Assembly (NCBI RefSeq): GCF_001696605.3
Contig: NZ_CP031716.1
Span: 3,782,001 to 3,846,000, forward strand
Origin: Acinetobacter wuhouensis
Lineage (GTDB): Bacteria > Pseudomonadota > Gammaproteobacteria > Pseudomonadales > Moraxellaceae
Length of the DNA: 64,000 nt
Direction: 5' to 3'
Shown in pieces: positions 5,768-62,069 of the stretch; the stretch's first letter is position 1; the number at the start of each line of letters is the position of its first letter. The notes below the pieces were generated by a model. It had not been told where the DNA came from and searched no databases. It saw only the letters and a list, made by a program, of their open reading frames with translations. Both the position numbers and the translations under genes were made by a program.

Positions 5768-6271
5768 TTACGCATTGAATGCTGCAGTATTTGTAGATAG
5801 AGACCATTTAGAAACAACAGTACCTTTAGCATTTCCGCTAATATCTTGTTGTAAATAAGTCCATTCTACTGCTGCATATTTCAAACCAAATGATTCAGTT
5901 GGTACACCTTCTTCATTTACAGAAGGAGTTACACTTGAAATCAGTACATGTTTCAATTTGATTTGAAGATATTTGATACGCTTTTCACCATTTGCACGAT
6001 AAAAATCAACTTGTACTTCATCAAATGTATAACCAGCAGAAGAAGCTTCCCAAAGTTTTGGACTTGTTGCATCCAAATCTTTAACGAAAACCATATCTGA
6101 ATGCTCTACACGTTCAGCAGTATGACCACCAACGCTTGATGAAGTAGCAGATTTTGGTTGACGAATATTATGAGACCAAGAATTAACTTCTAGCCAATTT
6201 TTGTGCTCAGAATCACGCGACTCGCCATCTACTTTGTATTTACCTTGAAAACGAACGTATATATCTTTCAT
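5768..6271 (-). CDS. hcp: T6SS inner-tube protein Hcp (TssD)
   Basis: 167 residues. Hcp hexamers stack to form the T6SS inner tube and are exported when the sheath contracts. Family features are the DIYVRFQGKYKVDGES start, the EVNSWSHNIRQP segment, and a C-terminal beta-rich part with LKHVLISSVTPS and VEWTYLQQDISG. No C-terminal extension is present, so it is a structural rather than an evolved effector Hcp. There is a 47-bp gap after tssC and a 62-bp gap before tssE. Confidence 0.97.
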   Translation of the reverse strand: MKDIYVRFQGKYKVDGESRDSEHKNWLEVNSWSHNIRQPKSATSSSVGGHTAERVEHSDMVFVKDLDATSPKLWEASSAGYTFDEVQVDFYRANGEKRIKYLQIKLKHVLISSVTPSVNEEGVPTESFGLKYAAVEWTYLQQDISGNAKGTVVSKWSLSTNTAAFNA

Positions 6272-9349: not shown

Positions 9350-12028
9350 ATGACAGATTTAAAAGTTTTAATTAAAAAACTATCAACTTCATCTCGTACT
9401 TCATTAGAACAATCTGCAAATTTATGTGTAAATCATCAAAATTTTGAAATCGAAATTGAGCATTTTTTTGTCAAATTATTAGAACAACCACAAAATGATA
9501 TTGAAATATTACTAAACAAATACAAAATCTCTAAAGATGGTTTAGTTGCCGATTTACTTGAATGTATTTCGCAACTCCCAAAAGGAAATACGCGTACTCC
9601 TATCTTTTCAAAATCTATAGTTCGGCTGTTAGAACAAGCATGGTTATTAGCTTCAGCTGAACAAGATCCAGTCATCCGAAGTGGTCATTTGTTGATTGCC
9701 CTTCTTACAGCATCTGATCTTTATCAAATTGCGATTCGGGCATCTAGTTTATTTGATCTGTTCCCGATCGATACAATGAAGCATAAGTTTCTAGAAATTT
9801 GCTTGAACAGTTCTGAAAATATTCAAGTGAATAATCAAGAGAATAATGCACAAGAAATAGCTGTTAATACTGAATCAGATAATGTAACTAAAAAAACACC
9901 AGCATTGGATCAATTCACGATTAATTTAACTGAAAAAGCCAAAAAAGGGGGCATTGACCCTGTCATTGGCCGTGAATATGAAATTCGCTTAATGCTCGAT
10001 ATTTTAATGCGTCGACGTCAAAACAACCCGATTTTGACAGGTGAACCTGGTGTTGGTAAGACTGCTGTTGTTGAAGGCTTAGCTTTAAAAATTTCCCAAA
10101 ACCAAGTCCCTGATGCATTAAAAAATGTGCAAGTACATTCCTTGGATATGGGACTGTTACAAGCAGGTGCAAGTGTTAAGGGTGAGTTCGAAAATCGCTT
10201 AAAACAAGTCATTCAAGAAGTCCAACAATCAGCACATCCGATTATCTTATTTATCGATGAAGCACACACTATGATTGGTGCTGGTGGGCAAGCTGGGCAA
10301 AATGATGCAGCGAATTTATTAAAGCCTGCGCTTGCACGTGGTGAGTTAAGAACAATCGCGGCAACAACTTGGGCTGAATATAAACAGTATTTTGAGAAAG
10401 ATGCAGCTTTAAGTCGTCGCTTCCAAGTGGTTAAAGTTGAAGAACCCACTGAAGAAGTGGCAATTGATATGCTACGTGCCATGATCCCAGTCATGGCAAA
10501 TCATTTTAATTTACGTATTGATGATGAAGCGATCGTAACAGCAGTTCATTCCTCACATCGTTATATCAGTGGTCGCCAACTACCAGATAAAGCAATTAGT
10601 GTACTTGACACAGCTGCAGCCCGTGTTGCACTCACTCAAAATGCTCAACCGGTGAAACTAGATCAGCTTAAAGCACAACAGCATAATTTGTATCTTGAAT
10701 TAAACATTATTGAAAATGAGCACTTGCATAATCCTATTCATGACGAGCGCTTAACTCAACTCAAAGCATCTTTGGATGTTCTCAATCAAGATATTGAAAA
10801 TACTGAAAAGCAGTGGCAAACCGAGCTTCATTTTATTCAACAAATTCAAAGCTTAGAACAAAGCGAAACTGCTGCCCAACAAGCTACAAAGGATGAAATT
10901 CTAAAAATTCGTTCGCAGCTACACGCATCCCAAGGTCAAGAACCTCTTGTTTTTGAACGTGTTAATGCACATATCATCAATGAAATTATTTCAGATTGGA
11001 CAGGTATACCTGTCGGAAAAATGGTCAATGATGAGATCAAACAGATTTTAAGTTTAGAAGAAAAACTTGAACAGCGTGTGATGGGACAAGACTATGCACT
11101 TCATCAACTGGTTCAAGGTATTAAGACCTCAAAAGCTCGTTTAGAAGACCCGAATAAGCCACAAGGTGTATTCATGCTTGTCGGTCCGAGTGGTGTGGGT
11201 AAAACAGAGACTGCTTTAGCACTTGCAAATGAACTCTATGGTGGTGAGTCACACCTCATCACCATCAATATGTCTGAGTACCAAGAAGCACATACAGTTT
11301 CATCCTTAAAAGGTGCGCCTCCAGGCTATGTCGGTTATGGTCAAGGTGGTGTACTGACAGAAGCTGTGCGTCGTAATCCGTATAGTGTTGTGCTATTGGA
11401 CGAAATCGAAAAATCTCACAGTGACGTGCAAGAGCTTTTCTATCAAGTATTTGATAAAGGCACACTTGAAGATGGCGAAGGTCGTGTGATTGATTTTAAA
11501 AATACCACGATTTTACTCACCTCAAATACTGGCTCAAATGCCATTATGCAAGCTTGCCTTAACCAGCCTGTTGAAGAGTGGCCAAATGCAGACGAACTGA
11601 TCGAACAGCTTAAACCAAGTTTATACAAACAATTCAAACCTGCTTTCCTTGGTCGTATGCGAATTGTGCCGTATTTCCCACTTCATGATGATCTTTTAGT
11701 CCGCATTATCGTGCATAAATTAGGCAAAATTACTGCGCGTTTAGAAAAACAATATGAAACAAAGGTTACGCATAGTGATGATTTAATTGAATTGATTTTA
11801 AGTCGTTGCACTGAAGTCGATAGTGGTGCACGTAATGTAGACAATATTTTAAACTCTACAGTACTACCCGCTTTAGCCACTGAAATCTTGGTTGCATTGG
11901 CTGAGCAAAAACTTCCAAAGACAATTCATATCGATGTGAAAGATGATGAAATCATTTACCTTTTAGATCCACAAGACAAAGTCGCTAAGAAAAAAACCAG
12001 TAAAAAGACAAAGAGTGTGGAAGCTTAA
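9350..12028 (+). CDS. clpV: T6SS sheath-recycling ATPase TssH (ClpV)
   Basis: 892 residues, a full-length class-B ClpV. This AAA+ unfoldase disassembles contracted TssB/TssC sheath in the cytoplasm. An N-terminal Clp-N domain covers about 1-150. AAA-1 has Walker A GEPGVGKT at about 231-238 and Walker B LFIDEAHT. A middle region follows. AAA-2 has Walker A GPSGVGKT at about 612-619 and VVLLDEIEKSH. The C-terminus is Lys-rich (KKKTSKKTKS). It starts the rightward T6SS arm with a GAGAGAAAAAA-type ribosome site just before the ATG, and tssA follows 17 bp later. Confidence 0.97.
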   Translation: MTDLKVLIKKLSTSSRTSLEQSANLCVNHQNFEIEIEHFFVKLLEQPQNDIEILLNKYKISKDGLVADLLECISQLPKGNTRTPIFSKSIVRLLEQAWLLASAEQDPVIRSGHLLIALLTASDLYQIAIRASSLFDLFPIDTMKHKFLEICLNSSENIQVNNQENNAQEIAVNTESDNVTKKTPALDQFTINLTEKAKKGGIDPVIGREYEIRLMLDILMRRRQNNPILTGEPGVGKTAVVEGLALKISQNQVPDALKNVQVHSLDMGLLQAGASVKGEFENRLKQVIQEVQQSAHPIILFIDEAHTMIGAGGQAGQNDAANLLKPALARGELRTIAATTWAEYKQYFEKDAALSRRFQVVKVEEPTEEVAIDMLRAMIPVMANHFNLRIDDEAIVTAVHSSHRYISGRQLPDKAISVLDTAAARVALTQNAQPVKLDQLKAQQHNLYLELNIIENEHLHNPIHDERLTQLKASLDVLNQDIENTEKQWQTELHFIQQIQSLEQSETAAQQATKDEILKIRSQLHASQGQEPLVFERVNAHIINEIISDWTGIPVGKMVNDEIKQILSLEEKLEQRVMGQDYALHQLVQGIKTSKARLEDPNKPQGVFMLVGPSGVGKTETALALANELYGGESHLITINMSEYQEAHTVSSLKGAPPGYVGYGQGGVLTEAVRRNPYSVVLLDEIEKSHSDVQELFYQVFDKGTLEDGEGRVIDFKNTTILLTSNTGSNAIMQACLNQPVEEWPNADELIEQLKPSLYKQFKPAFLGRMRIVPYFPLHDDLLVRIIVHKLGKITARLEKQYETKVTHSDDLIELILSRCTEVDSGARNVDNILNSTVLPALATEILVALAEQKLPKTIHIDVKDDEIIYLLDPQDKVAKKKTSKKTKSVEA

Positions 12029-17269: not shown

Positions 17270-17384
17270 AGCTGGCGATGACTTACTCTCACATGGGTAA
17301 CCCCACACTACCATCAGCGCTAAGAGGTTTCACTTCTGAGTTCGGGAAGGGATCAGGTGGTTCACTCTTGCTATTGTCGCCAGC
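17270..17384 (-). rRNA. rrf: 5S ribosomal RNA
   Basis: About 115 nt. Terminal complementarity (GCTGGCGA at both ends in opposite sense) and the conserved core (on the minus strand, CGAACTCAGAAGTGAAA) identify 5S rRNA. It is the last gene of the leftward rRNA operon, about 200 nt after the 23S gene. Confidence 0.95.
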
Positions 17385-17582
17385 AAACTGTTTATGATTA
17401 ATCACTTGGTCTTATTTAACTGTATTTACAGTGTGTGCCTAGCTTTGGTCAAATGAGTTATTAACAGAATAATTTGAGTTGGTAATTGTATCTAGCTTTT
17501 GAACTAAATCAAGATCAATCATTGCTGATTGTTTGGTTTTGAATCGATTGATGCATACAACACAACTGTTTGGGTGTTGTAT

Positions 17583-20474
<2,892 letters not shown>

Positions 20475-20846
20475 ACAACCCCAAACAGTCGTTAACCCTT
20501 ACAAGTAAGGTTAAGACAGATCGTGATTCTCACCACGCTCCACAGTTCGTTGTCCGTGCACCTAAGCACCGTACAGCTTCAATCTAAATTCATATACCAA
20601 AACGCTTGATTCAGTTTAATCGCTAGTAACTCAATCTCTCTTATTCATTCAAACATGTCACTTGCGTGTCATATTCTTATGTTTAATTGAAATGAGTATG
20701 AACAATTTATTTCAACTCAAATATATTCTGTTAATGATTAACTGCGTCTTCGTCAGATCGCAGCAAACTGTGATAAATCACAGAACTTAATAAGCTTATA
20801 CTTACTAAATTCTATAATCTATTTAGCCCGTACTCTTTAAAGTACG
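20475..20846 (-). other. Internal spacer between 23S and tRNA-Ala
   Basis: About 370 bp of transcribed spacer, with no tRNA beyond the two called and no coding frame. It would carry processing and antitermination signals; I could not pick out an unambiguous boxA. Confidence 0.7.
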
Positions 20847-20922
20847 TGGTGGAGACTAGGAGAGTCGAACTCCTGACCTCCTGCGTGCAAAGCAGGCGCT
20901 CTACCAACTAAGCTAAGTCCCC
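20847..20922 (-). tRNA. tRNA-Ala, anticodon TGC
   Basis: 76 nt with an encoded CCA end. The acceptor stem GGGGACT pairs with AGTCTCC, the D-arm is AGCTTAGTTGGTAGAGC, the anticodon loop is TTTGCAC (anticodon TGC) and the T-arm is GTTCGACTC. It lies in the 16S-23S spacer, as in most gammaproteobacterial rRNA operons. Confidence 0.95.
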
Positions 20923-20995
20923 AGCTTAAGACCAATATATCTAATTTTCTGTATTCTATATTTAAACTCTCATTCAAATATTTCGTTAGTCAGAA

Positions 20996-21072
<77 letters not shown>

Positions 21073-21131
21073 TCAGATACATCAATGAAGAACAACTTGT
21101 TGTGGATTCTTACCAATCGTCAATCTTTCGT

Positions 21132-22668
<1,537 letters not shown>

Positions 22669-22868
22669 TAAAATCATTAGTGACTTAAGGTCACAATTCT
22701 GGCTCATCAATTTTCTGACAAATTCTCTCAAATAAACTTCGAGTAATTTAAACCAATCAATCAATGATAATATTTCGATCAATCAATCAGTAAAAATCCA
22801 CACAAGTTGTTCTTCATATTCTCTTAATGATCTTCTCAATGCTTCGTCAGCATCAAGCTAGGTCGGCT
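22669..22868 (-). other. rRNA operon leader
   Basis: About 200 bp of AT-rich transcribed leader between the promoter and 16S. It should form the 5' strand of the 16S processing stem. No coding frame. Confidence 0.6.
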
Positions 22869-27517: not shown

Positions 27518-28360
27518 TTACAAAGATTGCTTATCCCAAGGCACCAGTTTTCGCTGCAAACGACGCAAACCAATTTCCAAAATAAAAGCAATCACCGCAA
27601 TAATTAAGATACCGACAATCACCACATCTGTTGCTAAAAGCTGTGAAGAGGATTGCACCATAAAGCCTAAACCCTCAGATGCACCCACCAGTTCAGCGGC
27701 AACCAGTGTAGACCAACCCACACCTAAGCCAATACGGATACCCGTCAGAATATTGGGCAATGAGCTTGGTAAGATCACGTGTTTAATAATCTGCATCTGT
27801 GTTGCACCCAAAGACTGTGCTGCTCGGATTTTAGCTTGATCGACCGAACGCACACCTGTTGCAGTTGCAATCACAATCGGGGCAAAGATCGCTAAATAAA
27901 TCAGCAAGACTTTGGATAATTCACCAATACCACACCAGATCACAATCAATGGTAAATAAGCCAAAGGCGGAATCGGACGATAAAATTCAATAATCGGGTC
28001 TAAAACACCACGGACAATTTTATTGCGTCCAATCGCAATACCTAAAGGAATCGCTGTAATCACAGCAGCGATTAAAGCTGTTCCGATACGTCCCAGACTT
28101 GCACCGATATGACTCCATAAGCTGATGCTCATATAACCATTGGCGAGTAAGTCCTGAAAGCGATCTATCACTGCAACTGGCGATGGTAAGAATAAAGCAT
28201 CAATCCAGCCTAAGGTCGTTACCAACCACCACACCACAATGAGCGCAATAATCGTAATCGTGCTGATCAAAGTAATACTGGTTTCACGTGGAACTTTTGC
28301 GGAAGCCGACTGAGGTGCAGTACCTTGAGCAACCAATTCAGGATCTAAATGTGCTGTCAT
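27518..28360 (-). CDS. tauC: Taurine ABC transporter permease TauC
   Basis: 280 residues, about six membrane segments, with the inner-membrane permease (BPD) domain at about 85-270. The EAA-type loop AAQSLGATQMQIIKHVILP contacts the TauB ATPase. The N-terminal tail (about 1-30) is cytoplasmic and contains the codons that form a parS-like site at 28280-28295. The stop-to-start gap from tauB is 2 bp. The protein imports taurine or related sulfonates across the inner membrane. Confidence 0.9.
   Translation of the reverse strand: MTAHLDPELVAQGTAPQSASAKVPRETSITLISTITIIALIVVWWLVTTLGWIDALFLPSPVAVIDRFQDLLANGYMSISLWSHIGASLGRIGTALIAAVITAIPLGIAIGRNKIVRGVLDPIIEFYRPIPPLAYLPLIVIWCGIGELSKVLLIYLAIFAPIVIATATGVRSVDQAKIRAAQSLGATQMQIIKHVILPSSLPNILTGIRIGLGVGWSTLVAAELVGASEGLGFMVQSSSQLLATDVVIVGILIIAVIAFILEIGLRRLQRKLVPWDKQSL
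28280..28295. other. parS-like ParB-binding site inside tauC
   Basis: GGTTTCACGTGGAACT. The central 14 bases, GTTTCACGTGGAAC, match the conserved core of bacterial parS (TGTTTCACGTGAAACA or TGTTCCACGTGGAACA) as a hybrid of the two half-site types; only the outermost bases differ. The same 14-mer recurs at 60723-60736. It lies in the 5' coding part of tauC. Confidence 0.7.
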
Positions 28361-59922: not shown

Positions 59923-60624
59923 TTACAATCCAAACTTTTGCCAAAGCTTTTCTATTTCATCTGCTGGATAAGCCCCCATCGCTTTATAACCATTTGAAAA
60001 AATAATAGCTGGCGTACCCTGCAAACCTAATTTTTGACCTAATTCCAGATTACGATCAATCGGTGTTGCACAGTTTGCAGGCGCAGTAGGTTTTATTCCA
60101 CTTTGAATTAAATTCTTCCAAGCGTATGCTTTATTGCTTGAACACCACACTTGCTTCGATGGAAGAATAGATTGCGCTTTGATTGGGTAAATGAATGTGT
60201 AAATCGTCACATCATTGAGTTTAGCTAAATTCCCTTCAAGAACCTTGCAATATGGGCAATTTGGGTCAGAAAAGATCGCAAGCTGACGCTTTCCATTCCC
60301 CCTCACTGTTTTAATAGCATCATTCAGAGGTAAAGTTTTAAAATCTACATAATTTTTCTGATCGACTAGATCTTTAGTTAAGTTATGTTGATCTTTTAAG
60401 CGAATCATTGAACCAATGAAAATATGTTGGGCATCTTCATTCACATAAATAATTTTATCGTCTAATGTCCCACTATATAAACCTTGCATCTCCGTTGTTT
60501 TCAGATTATCAATTTTTATATTGGGATATTGTTGAGCTAATTTCGCTTTCACAGTATCTACACTGGCAAAACTGACTGAACACAACGTAAGACTTAAACT
60601 CAATGCTATAAATTGCTTTAACAT
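59923..60624 (-). CDS. dsbC: DsbC-like periplasmic disulfide isomerase
   Basis: 233 residues from ATG 60624 (MLKQFIALSLSL), which gives a proper signal peptide (cleavage after SFA); the frame is open 38 codons further up but without sense as a signal. The N-terminal dimerisation domain is at about 21-80 and the thioredoxin-like domain at about 100-233, with the active site CPYC (Cys123, Cys126), a structural pair Cys161/Cys185, and the cis-proline GTPAII. Length matches DsbC. It rearranges wrong disulfides in secreted proteins. It starts 94 bp downstream of the metal exporter. Confidence 0.88.
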   Translation of the reverse strand: MLKQFIALSLSLTLCSVSFASVDTVKAKLAQQYPNIKIDNLKTTEMQGLYSGTLDDKIIYVNEDAQHIFIGSMIRLKDQHNLTKDLVDQKNYVDFKTLPLNDAIKTVRGNGKRQLAIFSDPNCPYCKVLEGNLAKLNDVTIYTFIYPIKAQSILPSKQVWCSSNKAYAWKNLIQSGIKPTAPANCATPIDRNLELGQKLGLQGTPAIIFSNGYKAMGAYPADEIEKLWQKFGL

Positions 60625-60718: not shown

Positions 60719-61714
60719 TTAAGTTCCACGTGAAACAAAGTTAAACATCGAAATCTGATTTATTTCGACTGAAATATGAATCAATTCTTCATGGATGGAT
60801 AAAGCTTGACGAATCATATCGGCATTAAGATTTTTATCACTTGTTTCAAGCGCCAAAATCACTGAAAACTTTGCTTTTCCCACTTTCCATACATGAATAT
60901 CTGTAATTTTCACCTCACTTTTGAGTTCATCAATCGCTTCACGAATTTCATTTACCACAGGCTCATCCATTTCAGCATCAAGTAAGGTTTTACCTGTTTG
61001 ACGAATCAAGCTCCATGACCAATTTGCAACGAGAAAAGCACCCACTATGCCGAGGATTGGATCTAAAAAATTCCAGCCAAAATATTTCCCTGCAATTAAT
61101 GCCAATATTGCCAAAACAGAGGTCACAGCATCAGCGACAACATGGAGAAAAGCAGCTCGATGGTTTAAATCGTGCACATCATGCGAGTGTCCATGACCTG
61201 AATGTGCATGATGTGAATGTGTATGTGAATGACCATGCCCATGATGATGCCCATGCTCGTGACCGCCATCATGTAATAACCAAGTACAAATTAAATTGAC
61301 CAATAAACCAACGACTGCAATCGGTATCGCTTCATTAAAATGAATCGGAACAGGAGAAAATATGCGTTCAATTGATTGAAATGCCATAAGAATCGCCACA
61401 AGCATCAGGATAATCGCACTGCTATATCCCGCTAAAATTTCGATTTTCCATGTTCCAAAACTAAACCGAGCATCTTGTGCATAATGCCGAGCTGCACGAT
61501 AGGCAACATAAGCCAATCCCAGTGCAATCATATGCGAGCTCATATGCCAACCATCTGCAAGCAGTGCCATAGAGTTAAATACCCAACCACCCACGATCTC
61601 AAAAATCATCATGACTGCAGTGAGTATTGTTGCAAATAAGATTTTCTTTTGTGCCAATGGATTACCTTCATCAAATTGATGACTGTGTTGGCGTTGTATG
61701 GTTTTAAATTGCAT
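60719..61714 (-). CDS. dmeF: CDF-family cation exporter, DmeF-like (Co2+/Ni2+)
   Basis: 331 residues, six membrane segments. Metal-site motifs are LLADGWHMSSHM (Asp54, His57, His61) in TM2 and HVVADAVTSVLAI in TM5. A cytoplasmic His-rich loop, HEHGHHHGHGHSHTHSHH and on, lies at about 150-180. The C-terminal regulatory domain follows (VKITDIHVWKVGKAKFSV). Divergent from an RcnR-like repressor with two operators between them, so it probably exports Co2+ and Ni2+. Its last codons form a parS-like site. Confidence 0.88.
   Translation of the reverse strand: MQFKTIQRQHSHQFDEGNPLAQKKILFATILTAVMMIFEIVGGWVFNSMALLADGWHMSSHMIALGLAYVAYRAARHYAQDARFSFGTWKIEILAGYSSAIILMLVAILMAFQSIERIFSPVPIHFNEAIPIAVVGLLVNLICTWLLHDGGHEHGHHHGHGHSHTHSHHAHSGHGHSHDVHDLNHRAAFLHVVADAVTSVLAILALIAGKYFGWNFLDPILGIVGAFLVANWSWSLIRQTGKTLLDAEMDEPVVNEIREAIDELKSEVKITDIHVWKVGKAKFSVILALETSDKNLNADMIRQALSIHEELIHISVEINQISMFNFVSRGT
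60722..60737. other. parS-like ParB-binding site at the 3' end of dmeF
   Basis: On the minus strand TGTTTCACGTGGAACT: 15 of 16 match a hybrid of the known parS forms TGTTTCACGTGAAACA and TGTTCCACGTGGAACA, with only the last base off. The inner 14-mer is identical to that at 28281-28294. The site spans the last codons (VSRGT) and ends one base short of the stop codon's end. Confidence 0.75.
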
Positions 61715-61802: not shown

Positions 61803-62069
61803 ATGAGTCATTTACACCAAGATAAAAAAGTCCTCAATCGTGTAAAGCGTTTAAAAGGTCAAATTCAAGCTGTTGAAGAAGCCTTAAATCAGCCAGACAG
61901 TTCTTGTATTTCAGTGCTACAGCAAGTTGCAGCAATAAAAGGGGCAGTCAATGGTTTGATGAATGAATTGATTGAACAACATTTAACTGAACATGTGATT
62001 CAAGATCCACACGCTGTAGATAAAGTAGAGTTACAGGAATTTTTAAAGTTATTGAAGCGCTATTGTTAA
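61803..62069 (+). CDS. RcnR/DmeR-type metal-sensing repressor (CsoR family)
   Basis: 88 residues from ATG 61803, selected because AGAGG is then 9 bp upstream and the protein starts MSHLHQDKK like RcnR. All four metal ligands of the RcnR W-X-Y-Z set line up with the same numbering: His3, Cys35, His60 (EQHLTE) and His64. The QQVAAIKGAVNGLMNELI helix is nearly that of RcnR. It represses until Co2+ or Ni2+ binds. Divergent from dmeF. Confidence 0.92.
   Translation: MSHLHQDKKVLNRVKRLKGQIQAVEEALNQPDSSCISVLQQVAAIKGAVNGLMNELIEQHLTEHVIQDPHAVDKVELQEFLKLLKRYC

Follow-up and report, generated by a model that had tools for sequence, protein, structure and literature searches.

A predicted chromosomal parS site across the last codons of dmeF, close to oriC in Acinetobacter wuhouensis

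ParABS systems act through CTP-dependent ParB clamps, and in the textbook layout their par genes lie near oriC; a survey of parS sites is said to have been made by Livny and colleagues in 2007. For Pseudomonas aeruginosa, the accessible part of PMC4368675 describes parS1-4, which, like the site analyzed here, are palindromes of the same kind present in several copies close to oriC. The same part indicates that nine of the ten P. aeruginosa parS sites most likely lie in coding sequences, that any one of the four origin sites suffices, and that parAB is located ~7 kb from oriC, compared with 1.58 Mb here. The consensus parS TGTTNCACGTGAAACA, as given in the accessible part of PMC7022226, shares with the present site the exact core form GTTNCACGTGNAAC and the clustering at the origin; the site departs from this consensus by two mismatches (G for A at position 12 and T for A at position 16) and, unlike the consensus parS as presented in that part, overlaps the terminal codons of a gene whose presence varies within the genus. 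The membership of this site among chromosomal parS is well supported, and the surprise is the location of parAB far from the origin. Among the matches listed in the open literature we found no report on chromosomal parS in Acinetobacter, and no title among the matches listed had codon constraint at parS as its subject.

Position of the 16-mer and clustering of exact cores

The window, that is, the whole 64-kb stretch of DNA analyzed, spans C8:3782001-3846000 of a 3,851,088-bp contig in the 3.96-Mb genome of A. wuhouensis (G000). The 16-mer TGTTTCACGTGGAACT, found on the minus strand at 60722-60737 with its 14-base core at 60723-60736 (Table 1), differs from TGTTTCACGTGGAACA solely in the final base and from TGTTNCACGTGNAACA by one mismatch across 16 bases, and its core matches the form GTTNCACGTGNAAC exactly. 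It encodes VSRGT, the last five sense codons of dmeF, with the TAA stop directly after, which confirms the original prediction of a minus-strand 16-mer one base away from a hybrid parS at the end of a metal exporter gene. The dnaA gene occupies C8:7-1380, and just before the contig end there are six DnaA-box-like sequences (five TTATCCACA and one TTATTCACA, with starts at C8:3850711-3850996), at which the GC skew changes sign, being negative to the left and positive to the right. Because this cluster and the skew switch place oriC, the distance from the 16-mer is ~8.0 kb to oriC and 8.4 kb to dnaA. The window also contains an rRNA operon with tRNA-Ile and tRNA-Ala (17270-22670) and encodes the type VI secretion ATPase TssH/ClpV (9350-12028).

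Table 1. Features of the window that bear on the predicted parS site
Feature	Coordinates	Strand	Evidence and remarks
Predicted parS site TGTTTCACGTGGAACT	60722..60737	-	Overlaps last five sense codons of dmeF
dmeF, Co(II)/Ni(II) efflux transporter, CDF family, 331 aa	60719..61714	-	NF033827, 382.4 bits, cut-off 250 (NCBIfam); ORF passes through parS
dsbC-like disulfide isomerase	59923..60624	-	NF008129, 81.7 bits, under cut-off 215, hence called DsbC-like
RcnR/FrmR-like metal-sensing repressor gene	61803..62069	+	NF008464, 74.1 bits, and NF011613, 71.9 bits, both under cut-off; divergent from dmeF, neighbour only
Second exact parS core, GTTTCACGTGGAAC on + strand	28281..28294	+	40.8 kb from dnaA, inside tauC
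tauC, taurine ABC transporter permease	27518..28360	-	NF007545, 351.5 bits, cut-off 342; parS codes VPRET near N-terminus

Exact copies of the 14-base core GTTYCACGTGRAAC number five in the genome and two in the window, compared with 0.08 expected per 3.96 Mb and 0.0013 per 64 kb under an order-3 Markov model whose training sequence was the window plus 60 kb from its vicinity. A genome-wide search for clustering at the origin, proposed together with the original prediction, placed 5/5 exact cores between -80.1 and +35.5 kb of dnaA, in recF (+3.1 kb), rsmB (+35.5 kb), dmeF (-8.4 kb), tauC (-40.8 kb) and ssuC (-80.1 kb); the tauC core was absent from the earlier reading of the window. In four of the five exact cores the two arms differ in form (TTTCAC/GTGGAA), and the looser pattern GTTNCACGTGNAAC adds a single match genome-wide, at -863 kb within a cheA-like frame. 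With up to two mismatches to the core, the whole genome yields 59 matches versus 49 for the reversed pattern; since this grade is near background, the two-mismatch matches in the window at 5928, 8846, 20089 and 34309 were discarded. A search over all 16 bases that allowed as many as three mismatches (at least 392 matches versus 256 in the control) was used solely for the mismatch count of the site at 60722-60737.

In three closed relatives (G047, G012 and G021), whose contigs begin close to the origin and whose dsbC sites lie at the same contig start, 22 of the 23 exact cores lie no more than 233 kb to either side of the contig start; the sole outlier is a core at 1.10 Mb in G012, far from its origin. 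Moreover, the three loci that reach far enough (L023-L025) carry a core ~3.1 kb from the dnaA start, which is the place of the recF site. Cores with one mismatch number 14 in the A. wuhouensis genome, all within 863 kb of dnaA (mean 0.23 replichore, simulated P 1.5e-4). Elsewhere, there are eight in G012, none farther than 554 kb from the contig start, five scattered ones in G047 and one in G021, with three, one and three matches at up to one mismatch for the reversed controls of G047, G021 and G012, respectively. An origin-centred halo of one-mismatch sites, being present in A. wuhouensis and G012 but not in G047 or G021, was rejected as a general trait.

Conservation beside dsbC and relationship to the exporter gene

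The exact core is present in every one of the 149 genus genomes searched, in 1-10 copies each; the reversed-core control is found in none of 148 of these genomes and once in the remaining one (G102). A dsbC match was obtained in 148 of the 149 genomes, and up to 1 kb upstream of dsbC was scanned in the 140 genomes with an origin-type dsbC, the other nine consisting of eight in which the weak best dsbC match was taken as a paralogue (G014, G030, G031, G077, G097, G131, G143 and G144) and G032, with no dsbC match. Upstream of dsbC, the core is exact in 134 of the 140 genomes, has one mismatch in two and two mismatches in one (G093, whose single exact core stands elsewhere); no core was detected within 1 kb upstream of dsbC in G098, G026 and G148, in which dsbC is merely 43-48% identical. 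The core starts 77-190 bp upstream of dsbC (median 118, n = 136 with at most one mismatch), and 112 bp upstream in the window. Across most of the genus, dsbC is the constant neighbour of the core.

As for dmeF, 67 of the 136 loci with zero or one mismatch have the end of this gene no farther than 60 bp from the core, two (L111 and L192) have it at a greater distance, and in the other 67, including L180, where the stretch stops at the contig end, no dmeF is found in the stretch. In 34 of the 67 dmeF-adjacent loci the ORF runs into or through the core, which in L199 supplies the dmeF stop codon with its own TGA, and in 33 the ORF ends 0-13 bp before the core. Furthermore, among 41 dmeF loci (11 of 29 loci, namely one of Alkanindiges and ten of Acinetobacter, the genus to which every named dmeF locus of at least 66% identity belongs, together with the best 30 among 109 genomes with a match), the site is present in 20/20 beside dsbC and in 0/21 elsewhere, the latter amounting to 20 distinct loci given that L027 and L079 are apparently the same place. 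On a dsbC tree (FastTree, 135 of the 136 loci, the other one having no dsbC frame above 150 aa), dmeF adjacency changes at least 17 times, a minimum that may be too high because the tree is built from one short gene, and the through/before state at least nine times, and the site is kept meanwhile. The core variant also changes at least 17 times on this tree, with all variants still parS. Six loci without dmeF (L132, L140, L144, L160, L212 and L213) have a match to the RcnR/FrmR-like regulator of the dmeF side, which would fit dmeF loss. The parS site is independent of dmeF, and the exporter gene comes and goes in the genus.

Codon choice within the core was analyzed in the 33 ORFs that read it as V[PS]R[EG] (L199, which uses a different frame, was set aside). 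The limit of at most one mismatch, which favours invariant codons, excluded among dmeF-adjacent loci only L197, in which dmeF stops 63 bp short of a degenerate site. The core codons are GTT in all 33 ORFs, CCA in 28 or TCA in five, CGT in all 33, and GAA in 28 or GGA in five, without any synonymous change in the first four codons of the core; the codon that follows extends one base beyond the core and is seen with all four third bases (ACN in 31 ORFs, TCA and GCA in two one-mismatch loci). Outside the site, GTT accounts for 31% of the Val codons of these ORFs, and CGT for 56% of their Arg codons. Among 174 conserved columns, four use a single codon: the V and R columns of the site, together with one Asp and one His column, both twofold degenerate. 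Among the 102 conserved four- or sixfold-degenerate columns, this holds solely for the V (GTT 33/33) and R (CGT 33/33) of the site; the P/S and E/G columns, which do not reach the 90% residue limit, are outside this comparison. The summed log10 P for the codon freeze is -48.6, which, given that the species are related, is not a probability.

The codon comparison among related species suggested at the outset accordingly revealed a choice frozen across species at V and R. Residue changes coincide with the degenerate Y and R positions of parS, except in L099 and L100 (core base 13), and the peptide takes the forms VSRGT, VPRET, VPRGT and VSRET. Given that the synonymous positions are frozen and the residues vary mainly at degenerate bases of parS, selection is acting to preserve the DNA. 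The earlier claim that VSRGT is constrained by the site is supported, with the refinement that the item kept is the DNA and not the protein: the peptide varies, and the site persists in the roughly one half of the loci that have no exporter. In the unrelated genes tauC, rsmB and ssuC (L002, L004 and window 28281-28294), the core is read in the frame that it has in dmeF, and the peptide V[PS]R[EG]T recurs there. Most simply, the VSRGT tail of the exporter is a by-product of reading through parS.

The predicted ParB protein and the location of parAB

The A. wuhouensis genome encodes one TIGR00180 ParB match, and the parB gene is adjoined by a parA-like ORF and an RsmG-like ORF, which presumably encode ParA and RsmG. 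Residues 5-249 of the protein align to chain 6t1f, the best solved relative, which we take to be Caulobacter ParB. Six of ten DNA-contact or specificity positions are kept (G170, K171, R173, N178, G201 and R204) and four differ (Q162H, S172A, T179L and A184S), with no Lys at 179 or 184; Q162 and S172, here H and A, are two DNA-contacting positions. These ten positions come from the accessible part of PMC7383237, which also names 6t1f as Caulobacter ParB and, so far as that part goes, describes R173 and G201 as absolutely conserved in ParB orthologues and a change of both, together with a permissive lysine, as shifting binding to the Noc site. By this alignment, the predicted ParB carries both residues that mark parS-type specificity, R173 and G201.

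According to the accessible part of a review (PMC7022226), the presence of par operons within the origin domain is a conserved feature. Here, in contrast, the single parAB pair is located at C8:2260051-2260587 (L018), with parB 1.58 Mb, or 0.82 replichore, from the origin-side dsbC. The distance of parB from the origin is 0.74-0.96 replichore in 19/19 genus genomes measured (our own and 18 of the 19 searched, all but G022). In another ten genomes of the family, each a single contig (three from this genus, seven from genera g9, g11 and g12), dnaA and parB are 0.59-0.98 replichore apart, with sizes rounded to 0.1 Mb and nine multi-contig family genomes left aside. No ParB match was obtained in the single contig of G196 (genus g11, listed as 100% complete), though most of its congeners have one. 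Among the matches listed in the open literature there was no report of such a distant parAB in Acinetobacter or its family, although the layout may be in print in subscription journals.

Alternative explanations and implications

Taken together, the sequence, the proximity to oriC, the clustering, the conservation on the dsbC side, the independence from dmeF, the frozen codons and the ParB specificity residues are the grounds on which the site is identified as parS. We consider it highly probable that the 16 bases are a conserved chromosomal parS across the 3' end of dmeF, on which ParB likely loads as a CTP-dependent clamp so that ParA would move the newly copied origin region. We infer ParB binding, clamp loading, spreading and ParA action at the site as follows: the one chromosomal ParB would load on the dsbC-side core and on the other origin cores, the loaded clamps would slide into the neighbouring DNA, and ParA would then move the newly copied origin region at cell division.

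A different, improbable reading is that the palindrome serves mainly as an operator ~118 bp upstream of dsbC, through which this gene is controlled by a transcription factor or by ParB in a repressor role, hence the tight core-to-dsbC distance. In the accessible part of PMC5521831, P. aeruginosa ParB is reported to repress promoters beside the intergenic parS3 and parS4, and by this analogy a mild ParB effect on dsbC is possible, which would be compatible with the parS explanation. A dsbC operator leaves unexplained, however, the same core within the recF, rsmB, ssuC and tauC frames near the origin, and a promoter/terminator scan of the stretch found two elements, a number that does not clearly exceed that in shuffles (mean 1.1, sd 1.2), which is weak evidence. 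That the motif is kept because the exporter needs a C-terminal V[PS]R[EG]T peptide could be argued from the presence of V[PS]R[EG] at or near the end of 33 genus ORFs, and yet we regard this as extremely unlikely: in 33 further cases the dmeF gene at this locus stops before the core, dmeF copies elsewhere are without the site, the site persists in 67 loci where no dmeF was found, the synonymous positions of the site are frozen while residues change, and the unrelated TauC, SsuC and RsmB carry the same peptide at other cores. Chance resemblance to parS, which nothing favours apart from the shortness of the motif, has next to no likelihood against two cores per window and five per genome, far above expectation, and an exact core in this position in 134 of the 140 genomes.

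Under the preferred parS explanation, the dsbC-side site is probably singly redundant, by analogy with P. aeruginosa, in which any one origin parS is enough. With less assurance, but still as the likelier course, we propose that ParABS is split in Acinetobacter and its family, with a parS array at the origin, anchored by the old dsbC-side site, and parAB towards the terminus. Such a split across the chromosome would uncouple origin copy number from ParB gene dosage, and the fixed sites would leave V[PS]R[EG]T in the overlying proteins.

The present analysis provides a mapped centromere-like landmark 8 kb from oriC in a genus that includes natural transformers and hospital germs. Moreover, the site is a clean example from nature of DNA-level selection within a reading frame; since half of the loci have the site without the gene next to it, this selection can be told apart from selection on the protein. 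Finally, the distant parAB makes it testable whether closeness of par to the origin matters.
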